Shown here piece by piece: positions 10,842 to 19,751 of a DNA stretch of 64,000 bases (its first letter is position 1; every line of letters starts with the position of its first letter). A model generated the notes under the pieces. It did no database searches. It saw nothing but the letters and a program-made list of their open reading frames with translations, and was not told where the DNA came from. The DNA is from Gammaproteobacteria bacterium (GTDB lineage Bacteria > Pseudomonadota > Gammaproteobacteria > Steroidobacterales > Steroidobacteraceae): the NCBI GenBank assembly GCA_025357835.1, contig JANYLM010000024.1, positions 62,001 to 126,000 on the forward strand, written 5' to 3'. A program made the translations under genes and the position numbers.

Positions 10842-10854
10842 CACCTTGACTCCT

Positions 10855-11718
10855 CTAGCTCTGCGCCCGGCTCGCCGAACGCAGCATAGCGAATGCCGCA
10901 TAGGCAATGACGACGGTCACCAGCCAGCGCAGCGCGACCAGCGGCAGCGATTTGACGATGTATGCGGCGATGAGCACGCCGATTACACCACCGAAAGAGA
11001 GCCCCAGCGAGGGGCCCCACGCAAATTTGCCGGTCTGAAAGAAACGCAGACTCGCCACGGGCTGCAGCAACGCGCAAGCCCCCATCATAATGGGGAAAGC
11101 GGCGAGGGGGTGCATCCCAAGCAGCGCCAGCGTAACCATGCAGGGCGCATACAATCCGATGCCTGCGCTCATGAGCGCACCCAGTACGAAATTGATGCCC
11201 ACGGCTAGCCCAAACTTCCAGCCGCCGAGGCTCATTGCCGTGCCGCCGCCGGGAAGAGCGTTTAAGTTCATGGCGGTGAATACCACTCCTGCGATGAGCA
11301 AGGCGACACCCATCGTGACCTGGATCGCTCGCCGCGGCAGTCGCGCCACCACGCCGGCGCCCAGCCATGCGCCGGCCGCCGCACTTCCTACCACCGTAAC
11401 CAACAAGAGCGGGTCGACCAGAATGGCCGTCACGAAAATAAGAGCTTCGGCGATTGCGGAAGGGGTATGGCCGACGTTTAGCGTGCCGGGTATCAATTCA
11501 TCGGGAACTATGCGCCGTAATTTGTATATCGCCGTGGTTGGCGCGAATGAGCCGATCCCCAGGGTGTCTAAGAAATCGGTGACAAAACCGATGACCAATT
11601 CGATGGGCGTCGGCCAGCGCACCGTGGAGCTGCGCCGCGCCGCGCGTATGCCGCCAATAATAAAGGCTACTCCGGCTAGGCTGATGGCCAGATAAAAAGC
11701 AAGCTGCGCGGAGTTCAT
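10855..11718 (-). CDS. TauE/SafE family membrane transporter
   Basis: 287 residues from ATG 11718; the frame extends to 11796 but that part reads as non-membrane sequence. Eight or so hydrophobic helices, with the family pattern of an internal duplication: GFVTDFLDTLGIGSFAPTT in the first half and VGINFVLGALMSAGIGLYAPC in the second. Members export or import sulfite, sulfoacetate and other small organosulfur or organic anions across the inner membrane. Its start faces the amine dehydrogenase operon with about 200 bases between, so a shared divergent control region is possible. Substrate cannot be read from sequence. Confidence 0.85.
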   Translation of the reverse strand: MNSAQLAFYLAISLAGVAFIIGGIRAARRSSTVRWPTPIELVIGFVTDFLDTLGIGSFAPTTAIYKLRRIVPDELIPGTLNVGHTPSAIAEALIFVTAILVDPLLLVTVVGSAAAGAWLGAGVVARLPRRAIQVTMGVALLIAGVVFTAMNLNALPGGGTAMSLGGWKFGLAVGINFVLGALMSAGIGLYAPCMVTLALLGMHPLAAFPIMMGACALLQPVASLRFFQTGKFAWGPSLGLSFGGVIGVLIAAYIVKSLPLVALRWLVTVVIAYAAFAMLRSASRAQS

Positions 11719-11769
11719 GCCGACAATATACCTGGTGGCGACGGGAAATGACGGGCAACGCACCCCAGT

Positions 11770-11801
11770 ATTCAGTTCGCCGCGCTTCCCGTACACTGAA
11801 T
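11770..11801. promoter_or_regulatory. Inverted repeat in the TauE / amine dehydrogenase control region
   Basis: ATTCAGT at 11770-11776 is matched by ACTGAAT at 11795-11801, giving 7-bp arms with an 18-base spacer and a 25-base centre-to-centre distance, in the only sizeable non-coding region upstream of the operon. This geometry fits binding of a dimeric regulator on two faces of the helix. No convincing sigma-70 boxes were found nearby. Confidence 0.3.
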
Positions 11802-11914: not shown

Positions 11915-13066
11915 ATGACAGCAGGCATTCTAAGTGCGAAAGCCGCGGCAATTTGTGCATGTGTCGCAGCTGCCCATGCCGCCGCGGCCGATTTCCCCAA
12001 GCCGCTGCCGACGGACATCATTCCGAAAGTTGAAACGCTACCCGCAAAATATCCGACGACCTGGACTTTTCTGAACTACGCCAGCGATCGCATCGAGCTG
12101 CGCAACGTCGGCAGCGATAGCCGCGAAGTCAAAGCTCAATTGCAGGCGCACGATTCGGCAACGCTCCTGGTTCCCGAAAAGCGTCCGGAATTATATGTGG
12201 CGGATACCGTGTGGTCGCGCGGTACGCGCGGCACGCGCACGGATTTCATCACCGTTTATGATACGCACACCTTGAATCCGATCGGCGAGATCGTGCTGCC
12301 GGGCGCCAAGCGCGCCCTGATCGCCGCCGTGGAAGGATTGATGGCGTTCACCGACGACCAGCGTATGGCGGTGGTGTTCAATTTTACACCCGCCTCGTCG
12401 GTGACGGTCGTCGATCTGGTGAAGCGGCAGGTAGTCGGCGAGGTGGAAATTCCGGGATGTTCGCTGGTGTATCCGTCGGGCACGCGCGGGTTTTCGACTC
12501 TATGCTCGAGCGGCACGATGTTGAGCGTTCGGCTGGACGCCAATGGCGTGGTGGCCGGCCGCGGTGAGTCCAAGGCATTCAATCCGTTGGACACCGATCC
12601 CCTGTTCACCGCGTCGATCGTCGTTGGCGGCGTGCGCTACTTCCCGAGCTTGCATGGCCGCGTCCAGCCGGTCGATATGCGAGGAGACGAGGTGAAGATA
12701 TTGCCGGACTGGCCTTTGGTGTCGGCCGCCGACCAGGCAGGTAATTGGCGGCCCAGCGGTTGGCAAGTCGTCGCCGGCGACGAACAAAAACTGCTGTACG
12801 TGCTCATGCAGCCGAACGCCCACGAAGGCACTCATAAGAATCCCGCCACCGAAGTGTGGGTGTACAACACCGCCACCAGGACTCGCGTCAAACGTTTGCG
12901 GCTAGTGCGGCCGGGTTCGTCGATTTCGTTGACTCATGGTGCCGAGCCGCTGATGCTGGTGCAGGCAGGCGAGCGTCTCGACGTGTACGAGCCGAGCGGC
13001 AATCTGGTGCGCAGTTTGGATTTGCCTGATTTCCGCAGCCGCATGCAAATCGAGCCGTTGCGATAG
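11915..13066 (+). CDS. aauB: TTQ amine dehydrogenase heavy (beta-propeller) chain, aromatic amine dehydrogenase type
   Basis: 383 residues from ATG 11915, opening with a signal peptide (AICACVAAAHAAAADF). The frame extends upstream to 11717, but that part overlaps the divergent transporter start. The protein is the seven-bladed heavy chain of the methylamine/aromatic amine dehydrogenase family: SRGTRGTRTDFITVYD, CSLVYPSGTRGFSTLCSSG and EGTHKNPATEVWVYN are family blocks. From memory, the last block and the GDEV...W segments resemble the Alcaligenes faecalis aromatic amine dehydrogenase more than methylamine dehydrogenase. The periplasmic heterotetramer oxidises primary amines to aldehyde and ammonia. 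Light chain gene follows after 58 bases. Confidence 0.87.
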   Translation: MTAGILSAKAAAICACVAAAHAAAADFPKPLPTDIIPKVETLPAKYPTTWTFLNYASDRIELRNVGSDSREVKAQLQAHDSATLLVPEKRPELYVADTVWSRGTRGTRTDFITVYDTHTLNPIGEIVLPGAKRALIAAVEGLMAFTDDQRMAVVFNFTPASSVTVVDLVKRQVVGEVEIPGCSLVYPSGTRGFSTLCSSGTMLSVRLDANGVVAGRGESKAFNPLDTDPLFTASIVVGGVRYFPSLHGRVQPVDMRGDEVKILPDWPLVSAADQAGNWRPSGWQVVAGDEQKLLYVLMQPNAHEGTHKNPATEVWVYNTATRTRVKRLRLVRPGSSISLTHGAEPLMLVQAGERLDVYEPSGNLVRSLDLPDFRSRMQIEPLR

Positions 13067-13124
13067 CAGCGGCAGTAGCGGCGGTGGTCGACACGAACCG
13101 GGGCGTGCACGTCTGGAGAATTTA

Positions 13125-13691
13125 GTGGCTCAATTCGATAATTTAACGGAAAGCGTATTGCGTAGCTTCGCGAGACATACGTCTCGGCGCAGCATATTCG
13201 GCATGTTGGGTGGTCTACTTGCGGGTGCGGCGGCACTGCCTTTGTTGCCGGTGGCGCGCGCGGGAGAGGGCGATACCAATTCCGCCAGCGATCCTAATTC
13301 CGGCCAATCTGCGCCCCAGGGCGGCAGCAATCCCCAGGATCCCGGCGATCCGACCAAGTGCGATTATTGGCGCTATTGCGCCGTCGACGGCTCGCTCTGC
13401 GCCTGCTACGGCGGCAGCGTCAATTCCTGCCCGCCAGGAACCGAAATGTCGCCGATCACTTGGATAGGCACTTGCCACAATCCGGCCGACCAACGCCATT
13501 ACATCATCTCTTACAACGATTGTTGCGGCGGAGTAGCCTCGGGACGATGCTCCTGTCAGAACAATCAAGGCGATCGCCCACCGGTGCGGCCGCAGAACAG
13601 CAATGAGGTGACTTGGTGTTTCGACACCAAGAGTCAGGTCTACACTTGCACGACGGCAAACATTTTGGGTGCAACCAATGATCACAAATAG
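13125..13691 (+). CDS. aauA: TTQ amine dehydrogenase light (catalytic) chain, aromatic amine dehydrogenase type
   Basis: 188-residue precursor from GTG 13125, with GGAGA at 13115-13119. A twin-arginine signal (SRRSIFGML, residues 20-28) indicates folded export. All cofactor-forming residues are present with exact family spacing: Trp113 and Trp164 (51 apart, as Trp57/Trp108 of methylamine dehydrogenase), Asp88 and catalytic-site Asp132 (equivalents of Asp32/Asp76). The mature part has twelve cysteines, enough for the six disulfides of the family. Thus the protein should carry tryptophan tryptophylquinone. The block SPITWIGTCHNP matches the aromatic-amine type as I remember it. Disulfide-helper genes usually between B and A are missing here. 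Confidence 0.92.
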   Translation: MAQFDNLTESVLRSFARHTSRRSIFGMLGGLLAGAAALPLLPVARAGEGDTNSASDPNSGQSAPQGGSNPQDPGDPTKCDYWRYCAVDGSLCACYGGSVNSCPPGTEMSPITWIGTCHNPADQRHYIISYNDCCGGVASGRCSCQNNQGDRPPVRPQNSNEVTWCFDTKSQVYTCTTANILGATNDHK

Positions 13692-13703
13692 CGCGCCGAG
13701 GCT

Positions 13704-14243
13704 GTGGCGCGGGCCTGCAACGGCGCCGGATTCGTGATCGCCGCGATGCGGTTTGGCGGGTGCGCCGCGGTGCTGCTGGTTGCTGTCTACTTGTCAGCGC
13801 CGGCTGGCGCTACGGGGACTGCAGGCGCGCGAACTCAGGCGCTGGACGCGGCGAACTCTTTGCCGGCCGGCGTCGACAATCCGCAACGCGCCTGGCAGCA
13901 CTGGGCGCTCAATTGCCAGGGTTGTCATCGACCCGACGGCACGGGATCCGCGGCAACGGCACCAAGCCTTGCGGGCACCGCGGCGCGGTTCTTGTCCGTG
14001 CCGGGAGGGCGCGAATATCTGGGCCGCGTACCCGGCGTCGCAGCCTCGCCTCTGTCGAACGTGGAATTGTCCGAAGTGATGAATTGGATGTTGTGGCGCT
14101 TCGACAAAGAACACTTGCCGGCGAATTTCCAACCGTTCACGGCGGAGGAGGTAGGGCGGTTGCGCGCTGCCCCCTTGCGGCTCGAAGCTTCGCAACTGCG
14201 CACTGAATTGCTCAGGAAAGCCGATGAGTCGGAGGCGCCGTGA
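13704..14243 (+). CDS. Monohaem c-type cytochrome, probable electron acceptor of the amine dehydrogenase
   Basis: 179 residues from GTG 13704, or 165 from ATG 13746, which begins a cleaner signal peptide (MRFGGCAAVLLVAVYLSAPAGA); which start is used is unclear. One haem site, CQGCH at residues 71-75, so it cannot be the dihaem MauG enzyme. Candidate axial Met residues lie in ELSEVMNWMLWRF. It sits 12 bases after the light chain gene, and its stop overlaps the next gene's GTG (GTGA), so it belongs to the operon. By position it likely takes electrons from the TTQ enzyme, replacing amicyanin or azurin. A role as subunit of the following oxidoreductase is less likely, as that protein lacks an export signal. 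Confidence 0.82.
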   Translation: MARACNGAGFVIAAMRFGGCAAVLLVAVYLSAPAGATGTAGARTQALDAANSLPAGVDNPQRAWQHWALNCQGCHRPDGTGSAATAPSLAGTAARFLSVPGGREYLGRVPGVAASPLSNVELSEVMNWMLWRFDKEHLPANFQPFTAEEVGRLRAAPLRLEASQLRTELLRKADESEAP

Positions 14244-16279
14244 GAGTGGCCGATTCGCACGACGACGTAGTGCTCACCACCTGCCCGCGTGATTGCTATG
14301 ACACCTGCGGCATGCTGGTTCACAGGCGCCAAGGAGTCGTTACCGCGGTGCGCGGCAATCCGGCTCACGCGGTCAGCCGCGGTACTCTGTGCGGCAAGTG
14401 CTCCACCGGCTATAACCGCGAGTGGCGCGATCCTGCGCTGCGCTTGAGCCAACCCCTGCGCCGCGTGGGCGACAAGGGAGCAGGGCGCTTCGAGCCGATT
14501 ACCTGGGACACGGCATTCGCCGAAATCGCAGGTCGGCTGCAGCAGATAATTGCGGCGCGCGGTGCGCACGCCATTCTTAACGCGCACTACACCGGAACTA
14601 TTTCGCTGCTCGCCGGAATCGCGCCCATGCGCTTCTTTCATCGCTTGGGTGCCACCGAAGTGACTCCGGATACGATTTGCAACATGGCCGGGCATGTCGC
14701 TTTGCGTTACTTGTACGGTTCCTCGGTGGATGGATTCGATCCGCGCACGGCAGAGGCTGCGGCTTGTATCATGGTCTGGGGCGCTAATCCGCATGCCTCG
14801 GCGCCGCACGCCCACGAGCACTGGTTGCCCGAGGCGCGCGGCAAAATCGTGGTGGTGGACCCGATTCGCACGCCGACGGCAGCGCAGGCGGATATTCATC
14901 TGCAACCCTTCCCCGGCAGCGACGCGGCCCTGGCATTCACGCTGCTGCATGTCATTAGGCGCGAGGGCCTGGTCGATGCCGCGTTCATCGCGGCGCACGT
15001 GCAGGGTTGGGACGAACTGCAGCCCTCGCTCGACGCCTGCGACCCGGCATGGGGCGCCGCCGTCACCGGCGTGCCGGCGGCACTGATCGAGGAAGTCGCC
15101 GTCCTGTATGCTCGCGGCCCGTCGCTGCTGTGGTTGGGTCAGGGTTTGCAACGCCAGGCGACCGGCGGCAATGTCATGCGCGCCTGCGGCCTGCTGCCGG
15201 CGGTCACCGGCAATCTTTGCAAGCCGGGAGCCGGGTTCCTGTACTTGAACGCTAGCTTGAAACAACGCTGCATGGATGAGGAGTACCTGGCTGCAACTCA
15301 CTTGGCGCCCCGGGGCGGACTGCCCAGCGTCAGTCACATGGATTTCGCGGCGGCGCTCGAAGATCCGGCGCGCTCGCAGGCGCTCTTCGTGTGGAACATG
15401 AATCCCCTGGCATCTTGCCCGCAACAGGCGCGCCTGCGCCGCGCGTTGCAGCGCGAGGACTTGTTGACAATTGCTTTGGATCTGTTTGCGACCGATACCA
15501 CGGCGCTGGCGGACTATGTTCTGCCGGCGGCGAGTTTCCTCGAGTTCGATGATCTTATTGCGTCGTACTTTCAATTGACTCTGTCGGCGCAGGTGAAGGC
15601 GATGGAGCCCATGGGCAACGCCCTGCCGAACCAAGAGATCTTCCGGCGCTTAGGCCAAGCCATGAAGTATTCCGAGCCTGAGCTACAGGAAAGCGACGCA
15701 TCGATACTTGCCACTCTCATGGAGCGCAGCGGTCTGGGGCTTAGCTTCGCATCGCTGGCGCGGCGTGGGTCGATTTGGGTGCCGGAGCGGCCTGCGGTGC
15801 AATTCGCCGACGGTGTGTTTGCCACGCCGAGCGGCCGCATCGAGATTGCCTGTGCACGCGCTGCGGAGGATGGCCATCCGCGGCTGCCGCAACCCTGGAG
15901 CGATCCCCGGCCCGCGGCGGGTCATTTGCGCTTGCTGTCGCCGGCGCATGCCTGGCTCATGAACACCAGCTTCGGTAATGTAGAAAAAATCGAGAAGCGC
16001 ATCGGCGAAGCGACCATCGCCCTACATCCCGCAGACGCCGCAGCCCGGCAACTGGCGGCGGGAGATTCCGCTCTGGTGCATAACGATTCGGGTCGCCTTG
16101 GGTTGAAGGTGGTCATTTCGGACAAAGTGCCGCGCGGCGTGGCCCTGGCCCATAAGGGCCGCTGGCTGGGTACGGATGCGGCGGGTGCCAACGTCAATGT
16201 GCTGAATCCCGGAGAGAAAAGCGATATGGGTGAGAGTACGGCGGTGCACAGCGTCGAGGTATTGGTGTCGGCCCGATGA
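14240..16279 (+). CDS. Molybdopterin-dependent oxidoreductase (DMSO reductase superfamily), substrate unknown
   Basis: 679 residues from GTG 14240, overlapping the cytochrome stop by four bases. Cys15, Cys19, Cys23 and Cys51 form the N-terminal [4Fe-4S] motif (C-x3-C-x3-C-x27-C). Cys147 in DTICNMAGH stands where the family's molybdenum-binding residue lies, as in formate dehydrogenase or thiosulfate reductase-like enzymes. MGD-binding and C-terminal MopB domains follow (VWGANPHAS, VVVDPIRTPTA, LVHNDSGRLG). No Tat signal precedes the first cysteine, so it is predicted cytoplasmic. It resembles the YoaE-like group of single-subunit enzymes without proven substrate. In this operon it might oxidise the aldehyde or acid made from the amine; that is inference only. 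Confidence 0.85.
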   Translation: MRVADSHDDVVLTTCPRDCYDTCGMLVHRRQGVVTAVRGNPAHAVSRGTLCGKCSTGYNREWRDPALRLSQPLRRVGDKGAGRFEPITWDTAFAEIAGRLQQIIAARGAHAILNAHYTGTISLLAGIAPMRFFHRLGATEVTPDTICNMAGHVALRYLYGSSVDGFDPRTAEAAACIMVWGANPHASAPHAHEHWLPEARGKIVVVDPIRTPTAAQADIHLQPFPGSDAALAFTLLHVIRREGLVDAAFIAAHVQGWDELQPSLDACDPAWGAAVTGVPAALIEEVAVLYARGPSLLWLGQGLQRQATGGNVMRACGLLPAVTGNLCKPGAGFLYLNASLKQRCMDEEYLAATHLAPRGGLPSVSHMDFAAALEDPARSQALFVWNMNPLASCPQQARLRRALQREDLLTIALDLFATDTTALADYVLPAASFLEFDDLIASYFQLTLSAQVKAMEPMGNALPNQEIFRRLGQAMKYSEPELQESDASILATLMERSGLGLSFASLARRGSIWVPERPAVQFADGVFATPSGRIEIACARAAEDGHPRLPQPWSDPRPAAGHLRLLSPAHAWLMNTSFGNVEKIEKRIGEATIALHPADAAARQLAAGDSALVHNDSGRLGLKVVISDKVPRGVALAHKGRWLGTDAAGANVNVLNPGEKSDMGESTAVHSVEVLVSAR

Positions 16280-17634
16280 GCATCGAGACCGTAGTCACCG
16301 GCGGCGGCGCGACGGGCGCCGGCAAACTGAAACGCTCGCTGGGGTATTGGGATTTGGTCCTGTATGGCTTGGCCTATATCGCGCCGTTCGCACCCTTCAG
16401 CACTCTGGGTTTCGTTTGGAGCGAATCGAACGGCCTGATCGTGCTCGCCTACGTGCTGGGCGCGGTATGCATGTATTTCACGGCCCAAAGCTACGCGACC
16501 ATGACCGAGACAATACCGACGGCGGGTTCGGTGTACGGTTTCGCCCGCCATTCACTGGGCGCCTTCCCCGGTTTCATCGCCGGCTGGATGATACTGCTGG
16601 ACTATCTGCTGATTCCCGCATTCGTCTATGTGTTGATCGCGGTGGCCTTGGAGACTCTGCTGCCCGGCATCGATCGTGCAGTGTGGATTCTACTAATGGT
16701 GGCGGTGACCACCGCCGTCAATTGGTTCGGCATCACCGTCACCTCACGGGCCAACTTCATCGCGGTCGGGTTGCAGGTCATTATCCTGGTGGGTTTTTTG
16801 ACATTGGGCGTCATTGCTCTCCAGGCCGGCAAGGGCAATGGCGCACTGACATTCAAGCCGGTATTCGACGCCGCCACCTTCGACGCCGGCAAGATATTCA
16901 GCGCGACCTCGATTTGCATCATGTCTTTTCTTGGTTTCGACGCCGTGTCGACGCTGGCCGAAGAAGTGGCGGGCGGCGACCGGCGAGTCGTCGGCCGGGC
17001 CATCATTGCAACGCTGGTCTTATCCGCAATCTTCTTCGTGGCCGTTACTTGGGTACTCGGCAACCTATTGCCTGGAATCGTAATCAAGGATCAGGCAGCC
17101 GCCGTGTATGAATTGGCGGCGTGGGCCACCGGGCCGTGGACGGCGGTGGTGCTGGCGTGGGCCTATGCCGGCATCGTGGGATTGTCCAATGCGCTGCCGA
17201 TGCAGGTCGGGGTCGCAAGAGTGGTATTCGCTATGGGCCGGGATCGACAGTTGCCGCGAGTCTTGGCACGGGTCCATCCTCGCTACCACACCCCCTATAT
17301 GGGCATGTTGGTCACGGCCGTCTTGTCGCTTGCCGTGGCTCTTTACATGAAAAACCGGCTCGACGATCTGGCATCGATCGTGAACTTCGGCGCCTTGAGT
17401 GGATTTTTATTTCTTCATGTCTCGGTGCTGGCATATTTCGGCATCCGGCGGGGTTCGGTGGCCTGGATAAGGCATCGGTTGGTGCCGGTCTGCGGGATTG
17501 GCGTGGTACTCGCCGTGTTCTCGGGCATGAGCGCACTTGCCGTCAAGGTCGGTGTGTCATGGCTGGCCGTCGGTCTGGCTTACGGAACGGTGCTCAAGGC
17601 CATGCGCCGCGAGGAATTGCGCGTTCCACTGTAG
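16276..17634 (+). CDS. APC-family amino acid / amine permease
   Basis: 452 residues with about twelve transmembrane helices. Helix 1 shows the APC pattern GLAYIAPFAPFSTLG and the region ETIPTAGSVYGFARHSLG is typical of the family. ATG 16276 overlaps the stop of the molybdopterin gene (ATGA), so it is the last member of the operon. The cluster suggests uptake of a primary amine, an aromatic amino acid or polyamine, perhaps the same compound the dehydrogenase oxidises. Only 25 bases separate its stop from the convergent deacetylase gene, with no clear terminator. Confidence 0.88.
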   Translation: MSIETVVTGGGATGAGKLKRSLGYWDLVLYGLAYIAPFAPFSTLGFVWSESNGLIVLAYVLGAVCMYFTAQSYATMTETIPTAGSVYGFARHSLGAFPGFIAGWMILLDYLLIPAFVYVLIAVALETLLPGIDRAVWILLMVAVTTAVNWFGITVTSRANFIAVGLQVIILVGFLTLGVIALQAGKGNGALTFKPVFDAATFDAGKIFSATSICIMSFLGFDAVSTLAEEVAGGDRRVVGRAIIATLVLSAIFFVAVTWVLGNLLPGIVIKDQAAAVYELAAWATGPWTAVVLAWAYAGIVGLSNALPMQVGVARVVFAMGRDRQLPRVLARVHPRYHTPYMGMLVTAVLSLAVALYMKNRLDDLASIVNFGALSGFLFLHVSVLAYFGIRRGSVAWIRHRLVPVCGIGVVLAVFSGMSALAVKVGVSWLAVGLAYGTVLKAMRREELRVPL

Positions 17635-17659: not shown

Positions 17660-18772
17660 TTAGCGCCCAGCTGGGATGTTGCGCACCAGTGCCGCGGCTG
17701 CGTCGATTGCGGTGGCTTGATGCGGCTGTAGTTCCTGTCCGCCCATGCGCGTCAATTCCTCGAGGTAGGGATCGACCACTGCGGTTTTGATGCCGGCGAA
17801 TTCCTCGATGACGGCCAGGCCGCAGAACGGTACGTAGGCATTGGAGTATCCGCCCTCATGCGTGGCCACGAGGCGACCTGCGCACAGGGTATCGGCGGCA
17901 GCGACGACACGCGCGGCCATCGCTCGGTAAGTCTCGCTGGTGCATAGCATGCGCCCGAGAGGATCCATGGCGCTGGCGTCTAGTCCCGATGCGACGACGA
18001 TCAACTGCGGGTGGAAGCGCTGCAATGCCGGCAACACCACGCGGTCGAAGGCGGCAAGATAAGCGCCGTGTCCGGAACCGGCCGGCAGGGGAATATTGAG
18101 GTTGCTGCCGGTGGCGGGGCCGGTTCCGGTGACCTCGAGCTGTCCGGCGTCGATGGGATAACAGCGGTCCTGGTGAATCGACATCGTGAGCACGGATGGG
18201 TCCGCGATGAAGGCGCTCTCGGTGCCGTTGCCGTGATGCACATCCCAGTCGACCACGGCGATTCGCTCCAGGCCATGTATTTTTTGCGCATGGCGGACCA
18301 GCAGCACCACATTGCCGAATACGCAGTAGCCGCGGCCTTGATCGGCTTCGGCGTGGTGACCCGGCGGTCTAACCAAGGCATAGGCATTTTTAATGCGACC
18401 GGCCAAGACAGCGTCCGTGGCCTCGATGCAGCCGCCAGCGGCGAGCAGGGCGATTTCATAGCTGCCGGCGCCGATGCTGGCGCTGTCGCCGATGAGGCCG
18501 CCGGCCGCCGCTGACAGCCGCCGCACGGTTTCGATGTAGCGCTCGGTGTGAAAATAGCGCAACTCGTTGTTCTCGGCAGGACGCGGCCTGATGCGAGTCA
18601 GTTGCTCGGCGAGGCCGCTGACTTCCAGGAGCCCGAGCAGACGGCGCTTGGACTCGGGAGTCTCCGGATGCTGATCGGGCTGTACGAAGGGGCTTGAACT
18701 CGAAAAGCCGGCGCCACTGCCGGGGTCATGCCAAAAGTAGCGCTCGTGAGCGACCAAACCGGTTTGTAACAC
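17660..18772 (-). CDS. Histone deacetylase / acetylpolyamine amidohydrolase family protein
   Basis: 370 residues from GTG 18772, with AAGG upstream and a family-like N terminus (LVAHERYFWHDPGSG); an ATG at 18853 would overlap the preceding gene by 56 bases. Zinc ligands Asp177, His179 (DWDVHHGNGTE) and Asp265 (SGLDAS), tandem His139-His140 (RPPGHHAE) and the transition-state Tyr309 (EGGYSN) are present, so it should be an active zinc amidohydrolase. Bacterial members remove acetyl groups from polyamines, small amines, acetoin-related enzymes or other acyl amides. Lying convergent to an amine permease and amine dehydrogenase, an acetylated amine is a reasonable but unproven substrate. Confidence 0.88.
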   Translation of the reverse strand: MLQTGLVAHERYFWHDPGSGAGFSSSSPFVQPDQHPETPESKRRLLGLLEVSGLAEQLTRIRPRPAENNELRYFHTERYIETVRRLSAAAGGLIGDSASIGAGSYEIALLAAGGCIEATDAVLAGRIKNAYALVRPPGHHAEADQGRGYCVFGNVVLLVRHAQKIHGLERIAVVDWDVHHGNGTESAFIADPSVLTMSIHQDRCYPIDAGQLEVTGTGPATGSNLNIPLPAGSGHGAYLAAFDRVVLPALQRFHPQLIVVASGLDASAMDPLGRMLCTSETYRAMAARVVAAADTLCAGRLVATHEGGYSNAYVPFCGLAVIEEFAGIKTAVVDPYLEELTRMGGQELQPHQATAIDAAAALVRNIPAGR

Positions 18773-18797
18773 GACGAGTGACCTTAAGGTGCCGCGG

Positions 18798-19751
18798 TTA
18801 GGGTATTGCGTTCGGAGATTGCACGGGCGCGCGATTGCGGGAATCGCGCCCATAGTAGTCGGGATAGTCGGCGCTTAGGCCCTTGAAACGACGGTGCACC
18901 CACAGATATTGTTCGGGTACGCGGCGAATCTGCGCTTCTAACAAGGTATTGAAGCGCTCGACGTCACAAATCGGGTCGGCGCCGGGGAAATTCTCGAACG
19001 CGGGCCCGATCACCACGCGATACCCGGCAGTGCCCGGCAGCCGCTCGGGGAAATAGGTCAATACGGCGGCCCCGGAAATGCGCGCCAGACGCGAGGTTGC
19101 GGTGGTGGTGGCGGCCGGGATGCCGAAAAACTTCACCATGGCTGCACCCTTGTTACGGTAACTTTGATCGGGTGCGTACCACACGGCTTCATTGTTCTTG
19201 AGGGCGCGAATCATGGTGCGTATGTCATCGTGCGCGATGGGTTTGCCGTGTCGCGAGAAACTGGCAAACATGGTGTGCGACAGGAGCGCATTTTTCGTCG
19301 GGCGGTAGACCACGTTGAGAGGCACGACAGTGCCGAGGATGCGGGTGGCTATCTCTATAGTGGTGAAATGGCCGCCGATCAGAATGGCGCCGCGGCCCTT
19401 GGCGAGCGCCGCGGTCAAATTTTCCAGGCCCTCCACCCGGGCCAACCTGTGTACCTGCCGGTCGCTGCCCCACCAGGTATTGGCGGTCTCGCACAAAGCC
19501 ACACCCAAGCTCTGGCAATGGCGGTCGACCAACTCGGCCTGATCCCGCGGCGAGAGGGCGGGCATGCACAGTTGGATATTGCGGCGTGCAATGCGCACGT
19601 AGGCCAGCGGCAGCCGCCGAATGAGCGCGCCCAGGGCGAAGCCCACATGCAGCTGCGCCGAGAACGGCAATAGTTCGATGGCCCGCAACAAGCTCAAGCC
19701 TACCCAAGTCGGCCAGTACTTGGGCAGAAAGAGCTCTAACCTCACGCCCAA
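18798..19751 (-). CDS. Lipid A biosynthesis lauroyl/myristoyl acyltransferase family (LpxL/HtrB-like)
   Basis: 317 residues with the LpxL/M catalytic block GGHFTTIE (His-x4-Glu) and the conserved PTKN and PDQSYRNKGA segments. An N-terminal hydrophobic stretch anchors it to the inner membrane, where such enzymes add secondary acyl chains to Kdo2-lipid A. The start is TTG 19751, with a GTG at 19745 as alternative; GAGAG lies a few bases before. The 20-base gap to the deacetylase gene downstream suggests a shared transcript, though the functions are unrelated. Confidence 0.88.
   Translation of the reverse strand: MGVRLELFLPKYWPTWVGLSLLRAIELLPFSAQLHVGFALGALIRRLPLAYVRIARRNIQLCMPALSPRDQAELVDRHCQSLGVALCETANTWWGSDRQVHRLARVEGLENLTAALAKGRGAILIGGHFTTIEIATRILGTVVPLNVVYRPTKNALLSHTMFASFSRHGKPIAHDDIRTMIRALKNNEAVWYAPDQSYRNKGAAMVKFFGIPAATTTATSRLARISGAAVLTYFPERLPGTAGYRVVIGPAFENFPGADPICDVERFNTLLEAQIRRVPEQYLWVHRRFKGLSADYPDYYGRDSRNRAPVQSPNAIP

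Follow-up and report, generated by a model that had tools for sequence, protein, structure and literature searches.

How does a tryptophan tryptophylquinone (TTQ) amine dehydrogenase obtain its cofactor when the genes that ordinarily lie between those of its two chains, mauE and mauD (together mauED), are missing from its operon? The question is raised by five genes within a window of 64,000 nucleotides from a gammaproteobacterium of the Steroidobacteraceae, corresponding to bases 62001–126000 of contig C49 (145,939 bases) in a genome of 4.05 Mb and 148 contigs (94% complete, 4% contaminated). These genes encode the heavy and light chains of the enzyme, a c-type cytochrome, a molybdopterin oxidoreductase and a permease; no mauE, mauD, mauG or amicyanin gene was found among them or among the profile-searched neighbours. 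We consider it quite probable that the operon encodes a periplasmic TTQ enzyme of its own clade, and that its ancestral mauED pair was lost as a unit because the mauE–mauD pair of a second TTQ cluster, encoded on the same contig, serves both light chains in trans.

Gene content of the operon

All five genes lie on the plus strand, with intact frames free of inner stops.

11915–13066, plus strand: TTQ amine dehydrogenase heavy chain, 383 amino acids, ATG start (PF06433, 128 bits, cut-off 21)
13067–13124, plus strand: intergenic stretch of 58 bases between the chain genes, with a GGAG ribosome-site-like stretch ahead of the light chain
13125–13691, plus strand: TTQ light chain, 188 amino acids, GTG start (PF02975, 158 bits, cut-off 25)
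13704–14243, plus strand: c-type cytochrome, 179 amino acids (PF00034; a single CxxCH, thus one haem)
14240–16279, plus strand: molybdopterin oxidoreductase, 679 amino acids (PF00384, PF01568 and PF04879; N-terminal 4Fe-4S motif)
16276–17634, plus strand: APC-family amino acid/amine permease, 452 amino acids (PF00324/PF13520)

The Pfam matches and frames bear out an initial annotation of the locus, which had listed these five products on one strand and noted the absence of maturation and amicyanin genes. That annotation described the dehydrogenase operon as fused to the molybdopterin oxidoreductase and permease; these are separate genes, and the 4-base overlaps it reported are exact at both junctions, GTGA between the cytochrome and molybdopterin genes (14240–14243) and ATGA between the molybdopterin and permease genes (16276–16279). 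The light chain retains the residues named there: Trp113, Trp164, Asp88, Asp132 and twelve cysteines (79, 85, 92, 94, 102, 117, 133, 134, 142, 144, 165 and 175). The two tryptophans are those that form TTQ, and the catalytic aspartate and the conserved light-chain cysteines are likewise represented. Residues 3–183 align with the methylamine dehydrogenase light chain precursor (PDB 3c75_L, E 1.1e-52), and the leader is twin-arginine-like by eye. With PF06433 and PF02975 encoded together and the two Trp, the Asp and the Cys present, the pair falls within the TTQ amine dehydrogenases in the broad sense.

Loss of mauED from an ordinary operon

We searched 148 genomes, the source genome and its relatives, and found a light chain in 42. 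The surroundings of these light chains were labelled with phmmer and tblastn, and orthologous operons were recognised by tree position and partly by common neighbours. The orthologues make up a single clade in each tree (100/100 in both), comprising 16 rows for the heavy chain and 18 for the light chain. In the heavy-chain tree, mauD lies between the heavy and light chain genes at 13 of the 16 loci, each time with a MauE match just before it; the three loci without mauED are the window, L056 (genome G018) and L064 (genome G014). The distance from heavy-chain end to light-chain start, taken by tblastn at 14 loci (ten with mauED, three without, and L076, which yielded no heavy chain), is 1163–1215 bases in the ten mauED-bearing loci and 62, 35 and 42 bases in the window, L056 and L064, respectively.

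Four orthologous operons of the same genus (L043, L049, L052 and L055) share with the window the upstream neighbours and the heavy chain, light chain and cytochrome genes, their heavy chains being 74–83% and their light chains 71–80% identical to those of the window. All four retain mauE and mauD between the chain genes, whereas the window does not; the molybdopterin gene of the window has a counterpart in only one of them, L043. In the heavy-chain tree the window groups with the mauED-bearing L049, L052 and L055 (99/90), apart from the L056–L064 pair (100/100), and this grouping is unchanged when Paracoccus MauB is added (99/89). Two separate losses of mauED within the clade are therefore the simplest reading. 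The first heavy- and light-chain trees were built without Paracoccus, and both were repeated with Paracoccus sequences; labels in the light-chain tree come from MauD alone, and its noED/near loci include ones cut by contig ends (L063, L076, L078, L080 and L094).

Judged on these sequence comparisons, the operon is a derived, mauED-stripped variant of an ordinary heavy–mauE–mauD–light operon. The comparison of neighbourhoods in relatives, which the initial annotation had proposed, thus replaces its notion of a minimal design with one of derived loss.

A second TTQ cluster carries the only MauD gene of the genome

A second heavy chain and a second light chain are encoded on the same contig, in a cluster at C49:136675–140722, approximately 60 kb past the last gene of the window operon. 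This cluster carries, on the minus strand, genes for two cytochromes c (PF00034), the light chain and the heavy chain. The maturation-type genes found elsewhere in the genome are as follows.

C49:139548–140132, plus strand: mauE of the second cluster, divergent from the chains (PF07291, 88.5 bits, cut-off 27)
C49:140129–140722, plus strand: mauD of the second cluster (TIGR02661, 218.5 bits, equivalog cut-off 188.6; CPVC motif)
L077 4211–6067 (contig C13): di-haem protein of the MauG family, with 36% identity to Paracoccus MauG in 310 aligned columns

The MauD on C49 is the sole MauD of the genome. In the MauD tree it groups with that of L208, whose genome has a cluster of the aromatic type (100/87), and stands apart from nine MauDs of the window operon's orthologues, so the C49 pair is not the window operon's own mauED in a new place. 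That tree holds 66 of 120 rows; the duplicates L126–L133 displaced L043, L049 and L052–L055, and the orthologue clade consists of nine other rows. The second-cluster light chain is nearest to aromatic amine dehydrogenase (181.5 bits to 2agl_D). Adjoining the cluster are genes for a MarR protein, homogentisate 1,2-dioxygenase and hydroxyphenylpyruvate dioxygenase (L007 14755–17628, equal to C49:140755–143628), neighbours that would fit an aromatic amine such as tyramine as the substrate of the second enzyme.

A further MauE-like match (C133:2531–2752, 28.5 bits against a cut-off of 27) has no MauD nearby; it was taken from its sequence for a DoxX-like protein and set aside. MauF gave no match in the genome at E 0.001. 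One alternative offered by the initial annotation, that the maturation proteins are encoded elsewhere, is thus supported for MauE and MauD, both on the same contig. Of the complete mauED/mauG set that, according to the annotation, would make the operon merely a split cluster, mauED is present; MauF was not found, and the single MauG-family protein is on another contig.

MauD accompanies TTQ light chains across genomes

Of the 42 genomes with a light chain, 41 give a strong MauD match (E <=1e-40); the 106 genomes that lack a light chain give none. An even sample of 398 genomes from the phylum gives the same picture, with MauD in all 11 genomes that have a light chain and in 0 of 387 that do not; the source genome is included in both counts.

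Loci without mauED recur in genomes that keep a pair elsewhere. G014 and G018, the genomes holding L064 and L056, respectively, each show a single MauD match against three for the light chain, and their second cluster (L098 and L099) also lacks mauED in the heavy–light gap, while its relative L085 has it. The sole MauD-bearing TTQ clusters of these genomes, L059 in G014 and L058 in G018, belong by their light chains to the group of Paracoccus methylamine dehydrogenase. In G014 and G018 a MauED of the methylamine type may therefore act for two other clades. Similarly, L057 is without mauED and its sister L089 has it, and the genome of L057 (G029) retains a pair elsewhere. In records from other metagenome-assembled genomes a mauED-less heavy–light pair lies beside a complete heavy–mauE–mauD–light cluster, the two being convergent in L137 and arranged in tandem in L181, and none of the nine aromatic-type rows of the family in the heavy-chain tree has mauED in the heavy–light gap.

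We also chose 18 loci, and searched their genomes, with heavy–light pairs lacking mauED in the gap (heavy chain cut in L180) or with a light chain cut by the contig end (L185 and L190), leaving out L131, L132 and L204 as repeats of genomes already covered. MauD was matched at E <=2e-49 in 17 of the 18, 13 of them above the cut-off. Because G152, G158, G163 and G164 appear to be the same as G087, G024, G069 and G034, the counts over 18 and 42 genomes overlap. With mauED retained elsewhere, and with MauD and light chains occurring together, supply in trans is likely and a MauED-free route unlikely.

TTQ completion and MauG

MauG is described as generating TTQ by oxidation of tryptophan residues in the precursor of methylamine dehydrogenase (PMC6405878). 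The source genome encodes one MauG-family protein, on contig C13 and unlinked to either TTQ cluster (36–37% identical to Paracoccus MauG). This protein retains a Trp and a Tyr at the aligned positions of Trp113 and Tyr314 in the Paracoccus precursor, which are Trp93 and Tyr294 of the mature protein. We did not assign it as the TTQ factor, given that it is unlinked and that 5 of the 21 light-chain-bearing genomes of the genus (G007, G009, G013, G017 and G022) give no match to Paracoccus MauG at E 0.001. Two of the five, G007 (98% complete) and G017 (99%), have two light chains each; G007, G013 and G017, at 94–99% completeness, combine TTQ light chains with MauD. Completion of TTQ without MauG thus seems possible in the genus. 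By the same count, the lack of mauG in the window cluster, correctly noted in the initial annotation, does not set this operon apart. Aromatic amine dehydrogenase (aau) clusters contain a cytochrome c and are not known to include mauG.

Taken together, we propose that an ordinary heavy–mauE–mauD–light–cytochrome operon lost mauE and mauD jointly; that the paralogous pair within C49:136675–140722 would serve both light chains in trans, with an oxidant other than a linked MauG completing TTQ; and that electrons would pass from the periplasmic enzyme to its own cytochrome c. A relative of this cytochrome is present in 18 of 18 orthologous loci, and it is likely the electron acceptor of the TTQ enzyme.

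An enzyme of its own clade

The window chains score below the NCBIfam cut-offs for methylamine dehydrogenase, the heavy chain reaching 125 of 454.45 bits (TIGR02658) and the light chain 189.5 of 196.85 bits (TIGR02659). In the trees with Paracoccus, MauB is part of a group of 12 rows (100/97) and MauA of one of 13 rows (99/98); both sit on long branches among other rows of the genus, and neither group includes the window. The Paracoccus denitrificans mau cluster (L122) shares the two subunit families with the window; its chain genes are surrounded by mauF, mauE, mauD, amicyanin, mauJ and mauG genes, whereas the window operon has none of these. The genome as a whole gave no MauF match, and in neither tree does the enzyme group with Paracoccus methylamine dehydrogenase.

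Aromatic amine dehydrogenase (PDB 2agl chains), the type of the second cluster, likewise consists of a heavy and a light TTQ chain. Against 2agl_D the light chain of the window reaches 128 bits, vs 131.4 bits against mature methylamine dehydrogenase (3l4m_C), and the light-chain trees do not separate it from the aromatic type. The heavy chain, however, is separated from that of L007 by a branch supported at 98/98 (99/98 with Paracoccus) and lies outside the aromatic clade. The distinct heavy-chain clade and the missed methylamine cut-offs identify the window enzyme, as far as trees and profiles can place it, as a TTQ amine dehydrogenase of a clade apart from both the Paracoccus methylamine and the aromatic types. 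Compared with MauE/MauD-dependent TTQ clusters, it lacks mauED between the chain genes and has mauED elsewhere in the genome.

Weighing the alternatives

Several observations weigh against supply of MauED in trans following loss. The light chains of the window and the second cluster share no more than 52% identity (56% over the mature region), so recognition of both by one MauE and MauD cannot be taken for granted. In the light-chain tree, support for the grouping of the window with L049 is weak (84/73). The single MauD match in each of G014 and G018 comes from assemblies that are 82% and 84% complete, in which further mauD copies may be unassembled. One genome, G069, has a light chain and neither a MauD nor a MauE match in an assembly of approximately 600 contigs; it is the sole genome of the 42 without strong MauD and appears also to be the exception among the 18. 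The window light chain carries 10 lineage-specific changes at otherwise conserved sites vs 0–5 in four orthologues, and its dN/dS (ratio of nonsynonymous to synonymous divergence) against three mauED-bearing orthologues, 0.10–0.14 for the light chain and 0.08–0.14 for the heavy chain, is rough, given window-pair dS values of 0.79–1.51, several near or above 1.

These sequence changes bear on whether the operon is a decaying relic, its light chain no longer matured after the loss of mauED and its enzyme inactive. Besides the 10 changes, the end branch of the window light chain is longer than those of its neighbours (0.22 vs 0.017–0.11), and the related locus L052 retains just a fragment of its permease gene. 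The changes could reflect decay, although a more isolated tip is expected to show more of them; together with the longer branch, they would be compatible with partial decay or with adaptation to a MauED from another cluster. However, five intact frames, retained TTQ and cysteine residues, dN/dS of about 0.1 in both chains, a heavy-chain branch that is not clearly longer (0.11 vs 0.061–0.10) and similarly low dN/dS in the mauED-less L056–L064 pair (0.08–0.10) make a relic improbable. We considered and rejected the idea that the window light chain had come to resemble that of the second cluster through co-adaptation or gene conversion, as 3 of the 10 lineage-specific residues match and the best other row matches 5; in the L056–L064 pair, none of 4 such residues matches the light chains of the mauED-bearing clusters in the same genomes. 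A different account would free the enzyme from MauED and MauG alike, with general periplasmic enzymes making the disulfides and some other oxidant forming TTQ. An operon without mauED, a clade in which the pair was lost twice and a light chain in G069 with no MauED match would fit such a route, which the initial annotation had also entertained. Against it stand the mauED pair in the same genome, the near-perfect co-occurrence of mauD and light chains and the high fragmentation of G069, and we regard it as very improbable.

The remaining alternative concerns the function of the whole unit, in which the molybdopterin enzyme would oxidise the aldehyde product or a related compound and the permease would serve uptake. 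In its favour, the 4-base overlaps link the cytochrome, molybdopterin and permease genes, and in L166 (9516–11609), L168 (9502–11616) and L182 (9524–11617) the gene after the two cytochromes of an aromatic-type TTQ cluster encodes a molybdopterin oxidoreductase of another kind; that of L168, the one compared, is 26% identical to the window enzyme. This recurrence hints that the association of molybdopterin genes with TTQ clusters may not be chance. However, among the orthologous loci the molybdopterin gene occurs in 3 of 18 (window, L043 and L076), a lower bound, as is the permease count given below, because some contigs end near the cytochrome. No twin-arginine translocation (Tat) leader was seen by eye on the window enzyme, so it probably resides in the cytoplasm and does not partner the periplasmic TTQ enzyme directly; in the PDB it best matches formate dehydrogenases and a thiosulfate reductase. 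In two plasmid relatives (Methylophaga and Agrobacterium; 2 of 1199 matching records, not the best-scoring) no amine dehydrogenase is in view of the molybdopterin gene, which in both adjoins a ferredoxin-type gene, a flavin or pyridine-nucleotide oxidoreductase gene and moaA. The earlier suggestion that the molybdopterin enzyme handles the product of the amine is consequently not supported, and a metabolic unit of this kind seems rather unlikely. Loss of mauED with supply of MauE and MauD from the second cluster remains the reading that we favour.

Permease and flanking genes

The permease gene is present in 6 of 18 orthologous loci (window, L049, L055, L056, L064 and L076). L052 has a short permease fragment after the cytochrome gene (10849–11031, 57 bits), apparently a decaying copy. 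Since L076 combines mauD with both the molybdopterin gene and the permease, the latter two are not tied to the loss of mauED. In L166 a class-V aminotransferase gene is convergent with, and adjoins, the molybdopterin gene. Two genes flank the window operon.

10855–11796, minus strand: TauE/SafE-family membrane protein, divergent upstream neighbour (PF01925)
17660–18853, minus strand: histone-deacetylase-family gene, convergent with the permease (PF00850)

The upstream gene supports orthology, a TauE-family relative being present in 10 of 18 orthologous loci, window included; an isocitrate/isopropylmalate dehydrogenase-family gene is found at 7 of the 18. A relative of the histone-deacetylase-family gene lies beside the permease in L049 too. 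Some members of this family are acetylpolyamine amidohydrolases, and by analogy the neighbour may be a hint of a polyamine-type substrate for the window enzyme.

Implications

Among titles and abstract openings, which covered few subscription journals, we found no literature describing TTQ clusters with a common mauED pair, which does not prove novelty. The apparent loss of mauED from TTQ operons on several occasions, in genomes that keep a pair elsewhere, amounts to a natural experiment on a maturation step that has received little study. Comparison of the G013, G007 and G017 genomes could reveal what completes TTQ without MauG. If supply in trans is correct, MauE and MauD would be a shared and promiscuous maturation pair, accepting light chains with about 50% identity to one another, and such a shared pair would aid the expression of TTQ enzymes.

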